The translations under genes and the position numbers were made by a program. Positions 29,646 through 33,915 of a stretch of DNA of 33,915 nt are shown here, piece after piece (positions within the stretch are counted from its first letter, which is position 1; every line of letters begins with the position of its first letter). The DNA is from Megasphaera sp. (GTDB taxonomy: Bacteria > Bacillota > Negativicutes > Veillonellales > Megasphaeraceae). The notes below the pieces were generated by a model. It was given only the letters and a program-made list of their open reading frames with translations, made no database searches and was not told the DNA's origin. The DNA lies in assembly GCA_022641375.1 (NCBI GenBank), contig JALCDF010000014.1:1-33915 (forward strand). Reading direction: 5' to 3'.

Positions 29646-29673
29646 GAATCACCCCTGCTCGTGCGGTAATGTC
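29646..29673. repeat. Single decayed type I-E CRISPR repeat
   Basis: GAATCACCCCTGCTCGTGCGG differs from the second repeat of the main array at one position, then degenerates (TAATGTC). It lies 2.26 kb left of the array, with insertion-sequence remnants between. Confidence 0.7.
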
Positions 29674-29812
29674 ATTAAGTTAAGGTTTGGACCAGAATAT
29701 TTAACAAATGCTCTGACTTTTTTTATTTTATTTTAAATATACACTTGACAAATCTATAAAAATACGAAGCAAAGCCTCTGGATTGAAAACATTTTTTAGG
29801 AGGTTTTGCTAC

Positions 29813-29977
29813 ATGTCTTATGCGAAAAAAATGAAGAAAATATTAAGAAGTTGTATTAAGCAAACGGTGCAATCATCTTCACTTTTTGTCAAACATCCGA
29901 ATACGGACTTTACTCGGAAACGAAAATTATCTTTTAAAACCATGTTATATTTATTAACTCAAACTTCCCATACCTAA
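29813..29977 (+). pseudogene. IS4-family transposase, N-terminal fragment
   Basis: 54 codons from the ATG at 29813 (AGGAGG 9 nt upstream) to a stop. HPNTDFTRKRKLSFKTMLYLL matches the start of Firmicutes IS4-type transposases, whose full length is several hundred residues. The catalytic domain is missing; the frame ends abruptly before the IS21 fragment. Confidence 0.65.
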
Positions 29978-30050
29978 AATGCTAACCATATCTTGAAGAC
30001 AGTATATCTTAAGGGATTAAAATACCTTAACTTACACTATTTATATTCTA

Positions 30051-30464
30051 GCATTAGGTGTACGTGCCTGTGCGCAAGGCCTGAAGACGAAGTTCTTCTC
30101 CGTGACAGGACTGGTACTGAAACTAGCGGAAGCACGCCAAAAAGGAACATTGGAGAAACTGACGATGGATCTGCAAAAGCAGGATCTCCTGATTCTGGAT
30201 GAATGGGGATATGTACCCATAGACAGTACTGGGTCGCAAATACTTTTTCGTATCATAGCAGACAGCTATGAACGGAAAAGCCTGATTCTTACCACGAACC
30301 TGGAATTCTCCAAATGGGGCGGTATTTTCACTGATGAACAAATGACCGCAGCCATGATTGACCGGTTAGCCCACCATGGACATCTACTGCTGTTTAATGG
30401 CAAAAGTTACCGTATGGAGCATGCCTTGATGCGTCAAGAGACAGACCGGGAATCTGTCTCCTGA
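30051..30464 (+). pseudogene. IstB-like ATPase of an IS21-family element, 5'-truncated
   Basis: The open frame from about 30051 reads ALGVRACAQGLKTKFFSV, which is the stretch directly after Walker A in IstB, so the N-terminus and Walker A are gone. Walker B is present as LLILDEWGYVPID, and NGKSYRMEHAL is the usual C-terminus. IstA is absent. An apparent ATG at 30102 is internal. Confidence 0.8.
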
Positions 30465-30549
30465 TGTCCCGCTGAAACTGATGAGTTTCCCCTGATGAAA
30501 ATGGGGATTTCTGATGATTTTTTTGAGGAATTTCACTTGACAGAATACA
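30051..30549 (+). mobile_element. IS21-family remnant, right part
   Basis: It covers the istB fragment and the following 85 bases with the repeated GATGA-type sequence common at IS21 ends, finishing in CA at 30548-30549. The next base starts a truncated CRISPR repeat, so the element appears to have inserted into, or recombined with, a CRISPR repeat. Confidence 0.6.
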
Positions 30550-30639
30550 CCACGCACCCACACGGAGTGCGACCATACTTTGTTAGTTCAGGTACGGCCG
30601 TGATACTATTTCAATCCACGCACCCACACGGGGTGCGAC
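30550..30639. CRISPR. Remnant of a type I-C CRISPR array (one and a half repeats, one spacer)
   Basis: A 32-nt repeat (30608-30639) begins ATTTCAATCCACGCACCC and ends GGGGTGCGAC, the classic type I-C repeat form. A 24-nt truncated copy with one change lies at 30550-30573. The spacer between them (30574-30607) is 34 nt, the normal I-C length. No I-C cas genes are present. Confidence 0.85.
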
Positions 30640-30691
30640 GTAATGTAAATCTGAACCTACGTCAATAGAGTAGACACGAAAAACGCGACTT

Positions 30692-31519
30692 TTAGGAAAC
30701 AGCCCCTGCATGAATAGAATCCGGTGTTTTGTAACCGATACTGCTGTGAATCCGTTTATGGTTATACCAAGACTCAATATATTCAAAAAGACTTTGATGG
30801 GCTTCCTTGTAATCTTTGTAAATACAACGGTTGACTTCTTCCTTCTTCAAAATAGAATGAAAGGATTCAATACAAGCGTTGTCGTAAGGATACCCCTTGC
30901 GGCTGTACGAATGCTGTATTTTCTTTTTAGCCAGATATATTTCAAACAGAGCACTCGTATATTGTGAACCCAAGTCGCTATGCAGAACGATTCCTTCCGG
31001 TGTAGCCACATTCAGGCAGGCGTTCTTTACCGCACGCACTGCCAGTTCAGCTGTCAGATTATTTCCAAATGACCAGCCGATAATTTTCTTGCTGTAGAGA
31101 TCCATGACAGAGGCCAGATACGTCCAACCGTCCTGCGTTGTATGGACATATGTTATATCTGTGCACCACTTTTGATTGATGTTGGTAGCCGAAAAATCTT
31201 GTTGCAATATATTGATACGTTCAGAAACGGAGCCAGTACTAGCGCAATGACGATATTTCTTGACCACAATCGATCTGATTCCCAAATAGGACATCCGTCT
31301 TTGCACCCGTTTCAAGCTGATTGTCCAGTTGTTCTGTAGCAGGCAACGGTAAATCTTGGGTGCGCCATACCGGCACTTTGTGTTGTAGTAAAAATTCAGA
31401 ATTTCTTGATCCAGTTTCTGATTCTCCTGTTCACGTTGTGAAGCTGTTCTAGTGGACACTTTATAGTAAGTACTCCGGTTCAAGCCAAGCACCTTACACA
31501 TGATTTTGATTGGATACAC
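30692..31519 (-). CDS. IS3-family transposase OrfB (DDE integrase)
   Basis: 275 codons from a GTG at 31519, but the frame is open further upstream to the A7G slip site, so the functional product is probably the OrfAB fusion. The rve core carries the DDE residues: Asp in WCTDITYV, Asp in LHSDLGSQY, and Glu in ACIESFHSILKKEE. An N-terminal HTH_21-like segment (CRYGAPKI) is present. Length is normal, so the element may be active. Confidence 0.92.
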   Translation of the reverse strand: MYPIKIMCKVLGLNRSTYYKVSTRTASQREQENQKLDQEILNFYYNTKCRYGAPKIYRCLLQNNWTISLKRVQRRMSYLGIRSIVVKKYRHCASTGSVSERINILQQDFSATNINQKWCTDITYVHTTQDGWTYLASVMDLYSKKIIGWSFGNNLTAELAVRAVKNACLNVATPEGIVLHSDLGSQYTSALFEIYLAKKKIQHSYSRKGYPYDNACIESFHSILKKEEVNRCIYKDYKEAHQSLFEYIESWYNHKRIHSSIGYKTPDSIHAGAVS

Positions 31520-31554
31520 ACTTTTGAATTTAGTGATGAAGGCAACAATCTCAG

Positions 31555-31845
31555 CTATTGTTTTCGAGCGAATATGGCTGTAGCTTTTTTTAATATTTCG
31601 TTCTCCATTTTCAATTGATGAATCTTTTTTTGCAACTCCTGGTACTCTTTCAAAGTAACTTCCTGTTTTTCATTAAAGGTACCCGAAGGTGCATAAAGTT
31701 TTTTCCATTTGTAGATAGTTTGCTCGATTAAGCCATATTCCTCTGCTAGCTGGGAAACCGACTTGCCAGACAGATAAAGGTTGACAATCTGCTTCTTAAA
31801 TTCTTCTGTGTACCGTTTGCTGTTTTTTGCCATATTGCAACACAT
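31555..31845 (-). CDS. IS3-family transposase OrfA (helix-turn-helix)
   Basis: 96 aa from the first ATG; a second ATG at codon 5 (MAKNSKRYTEEFKK) is equally likely. It has the usual HTH (KSVSQLAEEYGLIEQTIYKW in the N half) and a C-terminal leucine-zipper-like coiled coil. A run of seven A followed by G (31584-31590 complement) near its end is the slippery site for -1 frameshifting into orfB. Confidence 0.9.
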   Translation of the reverse strand: MCCNMAKNSKRYTEEFKKQIVNLYLSGKSVSQLAEEYGLIEQTIYKWKKLYAPSGTFNEKQEVTLKEYQELQKKIHQLKMENEILKKATAIFARKQ

Positions 31846-31919
31846 CCTTTTCTTTGATTGTAATGTGTCGCACTTTTTGTGTCCACTATTTTATACTAAC
31901 AGCAATTAGCTGATTGTTA

Positions 31920-31936
31920 TTACGGTTTAACCGTAA
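31920..31936. repeat. 17-bp palindrome abutting the last CRISPR repeat
   Basis: TTACGGTTTAACCGTAA is a perfect dyad that ends exactly where the leader-distal repeat begins. It may act as a transcript end structure or mark an old junction. Confidence 0.5.
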
Positions 31937-32147
31937 GGATCACCCCCGCTCGTGCGGGGAATACAGCTGCGTCCTGGTCTTCTTTTAAAACATCGAGGAA
32001 TCACCCCCGCTCGTGCGGGGAATACCTTTTTTGGCGGCCTCCGTTTCATCGAACTTGGGGATCACCCCCGCTCGTGCGGGGAATACCCTATTTACCATCT
32101 AAAGCTGCTTTAAGATTTGGGATCACCCCCGCTCGTGCGGGGAATAC
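31937..32147 (-). CRISPR. Type I-E CRISPR array, leader-distal block (4 repeats, 3 spacers)
   Basis: 28-nt repeats at 31937, 31998, 32059 and 32120, with 33-nt spacers (61-nt period). Read on the minus strand the repeat starts GTATTCCCCGC and forms the CCCCGC-ACGA-GCGGGG hairpin, the form of I-E repeats, so transcription should run leftward and the leader lies to the right, outside the window. The second repeat has one change (GAATC for GGATC), as expected near the trailer end. Confidence 0.95.
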
Positions 32148-32295
32148 GAATATAGCTCCAATAAGACTCATTGACCGGAAATAGTGCTGTATCGCTTCGT
32201 AAGTATTCCAAATTCGGCAGCTCTCCAGCTTTTAAGCAGGCATACAAATACGCGAGAATTGTACAGGCAATTACGTGATAGTCGTCTTTTGCCAT
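32148..32295 (-). CDS. YjcQ-like phage protein, N-terminal fragment
   Basis: 49 codons plus one base from the ATG at 32295 (AAGGAGG upstream) to the repeat boundary; beyond it the frame reads CRISPR repeat. MAKDDYHVIACTILAYLYACLKAG and FPVNESYWSYI resemble small phage proteins annotated as YjcQ-like, with a winged-helix fold. The C-terminal half is missing. It lies downstream of a terminator and has its own RBS. Confidence 0.55.
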
Positions 32296-32321
32296 ACTCG
32301 CATTCCTCCTTTTTACTCACT

Positions 32322-32346
32322 AAAAAAGCACCCACATTGTGAGTGC
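32322..32346 (-). terminator. Intrinsic terminator inside the phage-like insert
   Basis: On the minus strand GCACTCAC pairs with GTGGGTGC (one mismatch or wobble) around a 3-nt loop and is followed by T6. It ends the 46-aa ORF and points in the inferred direction of CRISPR transcription. Confidence 0.75.
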
Positions 32347-32349
32347 TCT

Positions 32350-32490
32350 CTAATCGTTTTTGCTTTTTCTTTTCCCAAGACGTATTTCTTCTTGCTTAAT
32401 CAGTTCGTCAAGCTCTTTTACCGTCATCTTTTTATATTCTTCTGGAATTTTAAAGCTATCATCAATTACTTCGTATTTTTTATTTTTCAT
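32350..32490 (-). CDS. Small phage-like protein, 46 aa
   Basis: A complete ORF from ATG at 32490 to TAG at 32350, overlapping the preceding gene by 11 bp as phage genes often do. The sequence is highly charged with a helical, Lys/Glu-rich C-terminal half (TVKELDELIKQEEIRLGKRK). No family recognised. Confidence 0.6.
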   Translation of the reverse strand: MKNKKYEVIDDSFKIPEEYKKMTVKELDELIKQEEIRLGKRKSKND

Positions 32491-32770
32491 CGCTTTTCAC
32501 TTCCCAAAAGTCAAAATCGTAGTTCCTTTTTAGCCTTTTCAAGGTTTCCATAACGGCTTCGTACTCATTATACCCTGAGTTAAAAAACTTGGCAACATAC
32601 ATATCAAATATTCTTTCACTGATTTCTTCATTACTTTTGTACGCAAACAGCGTTCCATCATGCCCCGCAACTATGCTTAATTCATAAGAGTTCTTAAAGG
32701 CTGAATTCAAATCGTTCACGCTCGGCGGTAAACTCTGTGGATGTGAATGTACAGTTATTAAATCGTTCCG
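32480..32770 (-). CDS. Phage minor head/JAMM-like protein, C-terminal fragment
   Basis: 96 codons and a stop, open from the repeat boundary at 32770; the in-frame GTG at 32719 is internal to the domain. RNDLITVHSHPQSLPPSVND contains an HxHP...S..D pattern of the JAMM/Mov34 type, and GHDGTLFAYKSNEE follows, as in the C-terminal domains appended to some phage head-morphogenesis (SPP1 gp7-like) proteins. The rest of the gene is missing. Confidence 0.55.
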   Translation of the reverse strand, partial: RNDLITVHSHPQSLPPSVNDLNSAFKNSYELSIVAGHDGTLFAYKSNEEISERIFDMYVAKFFNSGYNEYEAVMETLKRLKRNYDFDFWEVKSDEK

Positions 32771-33915
32771 GGATCACCCCCGCTCGTGCGGGGAATACGC
32801 GTAGCCCATACCGCTGTTCCATCTGTAATTGGGATCACCCCCGCTCGTGCGGGGAATACAAATATACCCATTATTATATGTTTTACCGGGCGGGATCACC
32901 CCCGCTCGTGCGGGGAATACTTGGCTTCCGTCAGCGACAACTCACTAAATTTAGGATCACCCCCGCTCGTGCGGGGAATACTCAAAGTAACCTGATTATC
33001 TCCAGTCCGTTCCGGGATCACCCCCGCTCGTGCGGGGAATACATGAAGATTGTAGCCCAGGCGGCGGCTTCGCGAGGATCACCCCCGCTCGTGCGGGGAA
33101 TACGGTCAGGCAGGAGTGCCAGACCGCATCGTACTGGGATCACCCCCGCTCGTGCGGGGAATACTATTACGGGCTGTCGCATGCCAACCGGAAGGCGGGA
33201 TCACCCCCGCTCGTGCGGGGAATACCAATAAACGCTATATACCGCTGTGATACCCCGGGGATCACCCCCGCTCGTGCGGGGAATACCGGTATTCCATCAG
33301 CCACGCTACATTCTCACGGGGATCACCCCCGCTCGTGCGGGGAATACCATACGAAGAAGGGGCGCGGTTCGGGATCCCGGGGATCACCCCCGCTCGTGCG
33401 GGGAATACTTATCGACCATGGCGGCCATTATTCCGATGCCGGGATCACCCCCGCTCGTGCGGGGAATACGGCATCCCATGTCATCTCCCTGTTGCGCCAG
33501 AGGGATCACCCCCGCTCGTGCGGGGAATACTTCCTGCTCCCGTAGTTGGGGCGGCATACTGAGGGATCACCCCCGCTCGTGCGGGGAATACGGATCATCA
33601 AAGAGTATTTCTTCATTCACCCAGGGATCACCCCCGCTCGTGCGGGGAATACAGAAATGCTCGTTTTGTGGTGGAGAAGCGAAGGGGATCACCCCCGCTC
33701 GTGCGGGGAATACCGATTTCTGCTATGCCGCACCACCGGCTCATGGGGATCACCCCCGCTCGTGCGGGGAATACATGATAAGCGCATCGAAGCACTGCGG
33801 GGAGCCAGGATCACCCCCGCTCGTGCGGGGAATACGTTCCGTCCGGATTCTTCACGAGAACCCGTTTGGGATCACCCCCGCTCGTGCGGGGAATACACGA
33901 GCTGTTGTATCTTTG
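32771..33915 (-). CRISPR. Type I-E CRISPR array, main block (19 repeats, 18 complete spacers, continues past the right edge)
   Basis: Repeats at a strict 61-nt period from 32771 to 33869-33896, all 28 nt and identical by eye, with 33-nt spacers and no repeated spacer. The base just left of each repeat is G in most cases and A in a few, so the functional repeat is probably 29 nt with a last base (C or T on the transcribed strand) taken from the protospacer side. No cas genes are in the window. A partial spacer of 19 nt is cut by the edge. Confidence 0.97.

Follow-up and report, generated by a model that had tools for sequence, protein, structure and literature searches.

Background

Control of spacer size is a central property of CRISPR adaptation, and it is the Cas1-Cas2 ruler that normally sets this size. 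Casposases, which are Cas1 homologues, insert long DNA and duplicate a short target, IS elements and other mobile DNA can interrupt arrays at length, and homologous recombination between a spacer and its protospacer could leave contiguous phage DNA between repeats. Array recombination has been reviewed (PMC8047081, in the portion available). For the Megasphaera Cas1-Cas2/DEDDh enzyme, the available part of PMC10284694 describes assays with a TT (=AA) PAM and late trimming of the PAM side, ahead of the second integration step. Here we describe a type I-E array in which a phage-derived fragment occupies the place of a spacer, a case which, together with similar ones in related genomes, suggests that the apparatus by which bacteria write CRISPR memories now and then keeps pieces as large as genes.

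The array and its setting

The window, i.e., the whole stretch of DNA that was analysed (33,915 bp), is the entire contig C14 of a draft genome (G000; 73 contigs, 1.69 Mb, 79% complete), and it carries the following features.

31937-33896, minus strand: type I-E CRISPR array, 23 repeats and 22 intervals
32771-32798, minus strand: leader-side neighbour of the insert, an intact repeat with 0 mismatches
32148-32770, minus strand: 623-bp insert of phage origin, occupying a 33-nt spacer slot between perfect repeats
32120-32147, minus strand: trailer-side neighbour of the insert, likewise an intact repeat with 0 mismatches

The array repeat (GTATTCCCCGCACGAGCGGGGGTGATCC, 28 nt, minus strand) is perfect in 22 of its 23 copies, with one mismatch in the repeat at 31998, and has the I-E characteristics of a CCCCGC..GCGGGG stem and a 61-nt period. 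Exactly 33 nt separate the repeats in 21 of the 22 intervals, and the remaining one measures 623 nt. Judged by repeat orientation, this long interval is the fourth from the leader-distal (old) end, and the leader side lies beyond position 33915, the array being truncated by the contig end. The genome contigs and viral contigs searched held zero exact copies of the repeat, and neither the TIGR03638 profile nor a Cas1 protein query recovered an I-E cas1 from the 79%-complete genome.

An IS3-family transposase (30692-31519) is located beyond the end of the array, outside the insert, and a degenerate I-E repeat is seen at about 29646, 2.3 kb past that end. Besides the transposase, the stretch 29646-31936 holds an ORF piece, which we take to be IstB-like, and two 24-nt repeats (at 30550 and 30616), presumably of type I-C from their look. 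It seems that mobile DNA broke the old end of the array.

One of the normal spacers (33653-33685) has matches in Ruminococcus and Salmonella phages, at 96% over 28 nt and 88% over 33 nt, and these fall in genes for Lar restriction alleviation. Matches occur in nine phage records, two of which were read: L065 has AA followed by C at the place of the PAM, and the match in L064 stops short of the PAM-side end. The phage genes matched are homologues and not the true source of the spacer. In a protospacer search with six of the 21 normal spacers (viral contigs, with partial-spacer patterns, and phages), only this Lar spacer was matched.

Structure and gene content of the insert

Within the insert, the following features are recognizable, listed from its leader-side end.

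32738-32770, minus strand: initial 33 nt of the insert, on its leader side, starting with C as do 18 of 21 normal spacers
32480-32770, minus strand: C-terminus of a minor-head-type protein with a JAB/MPN-like end, 96 codons plus stop, N-terminal part absent
32350-32490, minus strand: complete 46-codon ORF, with weak homologues after the JAB end in relatives
32322-32351, minus strand: terminator-like hairpin with a U run behind it, oriented as the array is transcribed
32148-32295, minus strand: start of a YjcQ-like phage gene, from the start codon on, 49 codons plus 1 nt before the repeat interrupts it
32148-32180, minus strand: final 33 nt of the insert, on its trailer side, with AT and not AA immediately before

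The minor-head-type ORF is open from the first base of the insert. Its JAB-like end matches Prok-JAB with an E value of 0.008, which is under the gathering score, and weakly (E 0.062) the end of a 611-aa ORF in L008, a phrog_581 minor head protein (E 2.5e-79) that is followed by a small ORF and then YjcQ. Besides the window's own genome, the JAB end is present in 10 of 380 genomes of the class (best identity 46%). In prophages of the class, weak homologues of the 46-codon ORF are located directly after the JAB end in L104 (E 0.012) and L106 (E 0.008), with a weaker homologue in L103 (E 0.33). The gene at 32148-32295, which we presume to be a YjcQ gene, belongs to phrog_3675, a family of unknown function (E 1.7e-4), and has relatives in 19 viral loci, 110-135 aa long in the 18 that are uncut. 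Nine of these 19 loci were scanned for the large ORF upstream of YjcQ; in eight it is a head-and-packaging protein (best family minor head protein in six, head maturation protease in two), and for that of L019 no family was found. A small ORF is mostly present between the large ORF and YjcQ in the viral loci.

The hairpin of the insert (dG -16.6 kcal/mol, z -4.3), which a separate terminator consensus scan did not list, could silence the three oldest spacers of the array. Hairpins similar to it occur in genomes of the class; in L102 one is found about 200 nt downstream of the JAB end, in L021 a similar hairpin is present but another gene follows, and in L060 the hairpin match lies upstream of a non-YjcQ gene. 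No relative examined has this hairpin directly 5' of yjcQ.

Most simply, the insert would be one contiguous phage stretch cut within two genes, a contiguity that we deduce from the gene order in relatives, no source phage having been found. The initial annotation had read it as a 623-bp phage piece in a 33-nt slot between intact repeats, composed of a gene end, a small gene, a terminator and a gene start, all in one orientation and cut at the repeat edges. With both neighbouring repeats free of mismatches, the ORFs and the hairpin located, and the YjcQ-like gene and minor head proteins with a JAB-like end found in viral loci and relatives, this reading is borne out. The search for a phage match that it had proposed succeeded in part, with related genes and their order recovered in viral loci but no contiguous source match: the insert DNA had no match among the phages and plasmids searched, matched 12 genomes besides its own among the 380 of the class over short stretches only, and P0002 had no match in viral contigs or genome contigs.

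The absence of a transposase and of inverted or direct repeats, claimed from the start, also agrees with what we see, as there are no direct or inverted repeats of 12 nt or more within the insert and its ORFs are phage-type or without a clear family. A transposon or IS element is rejected on the grounds that the insert has neither a transposase nor inverted repeats of at least 12 nt. Single-crossover (Campbell) integration at one spacer requires identical 33-mers at the two ends of the insert; these differ here and direct repeats are lacking, so that it is likewise rejected. A run of fused spacers with decayed repeats is ruled out too, as the insert reads as phage gene order. Alternatively, a phage with a solitary copy of the repeat could have been integrated by a repeat-repeat crossover and then reduced by deletion to 623 bp. 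Virus-borne mini-CRISPR arrays have indeed been described (PMC6858448, in the portion available), but no IMG/VR contig has the exact repeat, and the ends of the insert are not adjoining but lie ca. 600 bp apart within phage genes, so that this route requires a precise second deletion at the repeat edge; we regard it as highly improbable.

Long intervals in related arrays

Looking for long spacers in other arrays, as had been proposed from the window alone, proved productive. The 380 genomes of the class were scanned for I-E-like repeats and I-E Cas1, arrays were scorable in 13 of them, and intervals of 28-40 nt were considered normal. Among the repeat places listed, nine intervals are long (274-1355 bp) and 202 normal, the long ones being spread over six of the 13 genomes: one each in G000 (the window's, 623 bp), G066 (1067 bp), G077 (429 bp) and G002 (274 bp), three in G156 (1355, 383 and 840 bp), and two in G231 (331 and 540 bp). 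The repeats flanking these nine intervals have 0-2 mismatches to the main repeat of the respective array. The first interval of the array is a long one in G077 (of 42 intervals, directly after cas1 and cas2-dnaQ), in G231 (of six, on the cas side) and in G002 (of two, with no leader identified).

Several sites were left out of this count: G027, where stretches of 675 and 256 bp separate three isolated repeats; G117, with a degenerate array and long gaps; one repeat at a contig end in G154 (L118); and G019, G021, G070, G122 and G283, with one to four repeat-like sites each. The two stretches of G027 (L099, 941-1955) carry small genes, and no 33-nt spacer is found between its repeats. In G257, G272 and G280, gaps of 8.3-8.6 kb were taken to divide distinct clusters of repeats and were not counted as intervals; cas1/cas2 hits are present in the stretch read from each of the three, and in G257 and G272 they are located inside the gaps. 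For statistics on the inserts themselves, the two of G027 were added to the nine main long intervals, giving 11.

Phage relatives were recovered for several of these inserts. That of G066 is an open stretch whose first ca. 90 residues match genes in 41 phage records (phrog_9880), and that of G002 comes from the interior of a gene with a viral-contig homologue that is 63% identical over all 90 residues, the homologous ORF continuing beyond both ends of the insert. In G156, the first insert has phage-family pieces at both ends, the second a repressor- or mobilization-like piece, and the third (840 bp, L111 3043-3882) a piece that looks JAB-like by eye, as in the window's insert, with a single weak match to phrog_5057 (unknown function, E 0.01). 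The second insert of G231 has one weak viral relative; for the first one and for G027, phage relatives were looked for and none found. The insert of G077, perhaps a microvirus piece by its look, had no relative confirmed in the searches.

This recurrence bears on a possible artefact, an assembly chimera, in which a short-k assembler would exit the array at one spacer shared with an abundant phage and re-enter it at another. A fragmented draft (73 contigs, 79% complete) with a contig that ends in the array invites such an error, and several of the other carriers are drafts as well. Yet similar inserts are found in G002, a genome in a single contig, and on a 323-kb contig of G231, whose assembly of about 20 contigs is rated 100% complete. 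The chimera also predicts AA and then a pyrimidine beside the last 33 nt, and as this is seen in none of the 11 inserts, we consider it distinctly improbable.

Junction signatures

At the left (leader-side) junction, the first base after the repeat is C or T in all 11 long inserts (C in that of the window), and in 14 of 14 when the degenerate array of G117 is added. Normal spacers start with C or T in 21/21 cases in G000, 21/22 in G066, 31/33 in G156 and 30/41 in G077. A different kind of recombination or end-joining at repeats, e.g., the repair of a broken array that captured phage DNA, would fit the differing ends of the inserts and the six of 11 that have no AA at the right-end place tested below, but it explains neither the pyrimidine at 11/11 left junctions nor the near-perfect repeats (0-2 mismatches) flanking the nine main cases, and we think it quite unlikely.

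The I-E PAMs given in the available portion of Vink et al. are AAC, AAT, AAN, AAA and AAG, plus AC, AG and AWG (PMC8482600). Because of this list and the TT PAM of the Megasphaera enzyme, the PAM expected here would be AA and then a pyrimidine. Homologues of the window's insert, aligned by eye, have AA at the left end in three of seven cases; for the G066 insert, an in-genus homologue reads CAA and then CTG across the left end, and two more distant homologues are without AA (1/3).

The right end shows a partial signal of its own. AA is present exactly 33 nt from it in five of the 11 inserts against 1.33 expected (P 0.006), in a small sample with several inserts from the same genomes and with a test that was fixed before counting, though three inserts had already been read by eye. 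Without G027 the count is 4/9 against 0.93 expected (P 0.009), and in that nine-insert set another dinucleotide, TC at 18, likewise reaches 4/9. The five inserts with AA are those of G066 and G002, both of G231 and the second of G027; that of the window has AT. The base following this position is a purine in all five inserts with AA and in nine of 11 overall, an observation made post hoc.

These patterns weigh on a further scenario, in which two neighbouring spacers, A and B, were derived from one phage, and integration at A followed by excision at B, each through 33-bp homologies, replaced A-repeat-B with the intervening phage DNA. Exact repeat boundaries and a single orientation would follow with no new enzymology, the left junction does have the signature of a spacer, and AA is enriched 33 nt from the right end (5/11). 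However, B should show AA-pyrimidine, and a purine is found instead in 9/11, including all five with AA, the other six having no AA at all. Tandem spacers from the same phage would moreover be needed each time, even for the first intervals of G077, G231 and G002. We consider this scenario unlikely, and the absence of the AA-pyrimidine signature (0/11) leads us to reject both it and the assembly chimera as a general cause.

How the fragment may have been captured

On balance, we think that the 623 bp probably represent an oversized spacer, i.e., a long phage fragment that was joined by the adaptation machinery to both repeat ends. Such a capture agrees with the evidence more readily than does a recombination of two spacers or a chimeric assembly. 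An untrimmed fragment joined at the repeat junctions was also a proposal of the initial annotation; it stands as the best-supported one, through the recurrence of long intervals and the left pyrimidine, while the route past the 33-bp ruler is one that we infer.

The enzyme would be a Cas1 with a Cas2 that bears a DnaQ/DEDDh exonuclease domain, as in related arrays of the class, and the repeat would be duplicated in the process. The integrase may capture one end of a long phage duplex, whose non-PAM 3' end would attack the leader-side end of the repeat as usual and thereby fix the trailer-side end of the insert. The DNA on the PAM side would escape trimming to 33 bp and remain attached, until the far end, with a normal PAM-derived pyrimidine, would be joined to the repeat on its spacer side and gap filling would follow. 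We infer all these biochemical steps, the two-ended model, and which enzyme acted on this array.

Activity of the array's own integrase would explain why the repeat is duplicated, why a pyrimidine follows it and why AA shows a partial signal, as well as the first-interval positions in G077, G231 and G002. An AA 33 nt from the right end is what an integrase acting on the last 33 bp beside an AA PAM would leave. As in acquired spacers, foreign DNA is flanked on both sides by complete repeats and the leader-side end carries the PAM-derived nucleotide (pyrimidine in 11/11), and the size departs from them, 623 nt against a ruler size of 32-34 nt. Other points speak against capture: AA is absent from the right-end position in six of the 11 inserts, including that of the window, and a purine follows it in the other five, unlike in normal spacers. 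The ruler that normally fixes spacer size, the search for I-E cas1 without a hit in the window's own genome, the left-end AA seen in just some of the homologues, and the hairpin-yjcQ order unmatched among relatives weigh on the same side. The Megasphaera enzyme, in the portion of its description used here, is reported to need PAM trimming for full-site integration (PMC10284694).

Three genomes (G066, G077 and G231) have cas genes on the same contig as a long insert, and in all of them Cas2 has a DnaQ-like domain. In G077, Cas2 and this domain are located within one open frame of 313 codons, and Cas2 and DnaQ hits with similar spacing are found near the arrays of G066, G231, G352, G154 and G156, those of G156 on contigs other than its long inserts. 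G352 (17 intervals), G154 (at least 15) and G116 (seven) have a DnaQ hit and yet no long interval, and G257, G272 and G280, with no DnaQ hit at Cas2, have none among 38. The association is not significant, at 9/173 (three genomes of unassigned Cas2 type included) against 0/38. G257, G272 and G280 (L155, L156 and L157) also form a second I-E lineage, in which 37 of 38 spacers start with G, the base that an AAG PAM would predict.

It is possible, though doubtful, that type I-E systems with DnaQ-Cas2 have a second mode of adaptation that yields gene-sized phage pieces. Prespacers beside an AA-purine PAM could be seated and joined on the leader side but not be finishable at their own PAM end, and completion would then come from the opposite end of that long fragment, which terminates in a pyrimidine. 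If this were true, phage pieces of about 0.3-1.4 kb would make up about 5% of array intervals.

Comparison with known systems

No description of such inserts was found in the open-licence PMC literature searched, as judged by titles and the beginnings of abstracts. Natural fragments 8 to 41 times too long, set between intact repeats, would show where the ruler fails, would link Cas1-Cas2 to a casposon-like integration of long DNA, and would matter for DNA recorders that depend on a fixed spacer size. Long inserts also preserve readable pieces of phages.

Among the known processes, IS elements in arrays differ from the insert, which is bounded by both repeat edges and is without a transposase, and recombination between spacer and protospacer predicts a protospacer signature at the far end that is seen here in 0/11. 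Casposons are alike in the insertion of long DNA by a Cas1-family enzyme with duplication of a short target, but the insert has no cas1-like gene and no inverted repeats, and its genes are cut at both ends. Acquisition by the Megasphaera Cas1-Cas2/DEDDh enzyme, as far as the available portion of PMC10284694 describes it, likewise gives repeat-flanked DNA with a pyrimidine after the repeat and an AA/TT PAM (presumed here), and a DnaQ-like domain on Cas2 is likewise found in related arrays. The spacers of that enzyme measure 33 bp, whereas the insert, at 623 bp (274-1355 bp in relatives), appears as an untrimmed counterpart.
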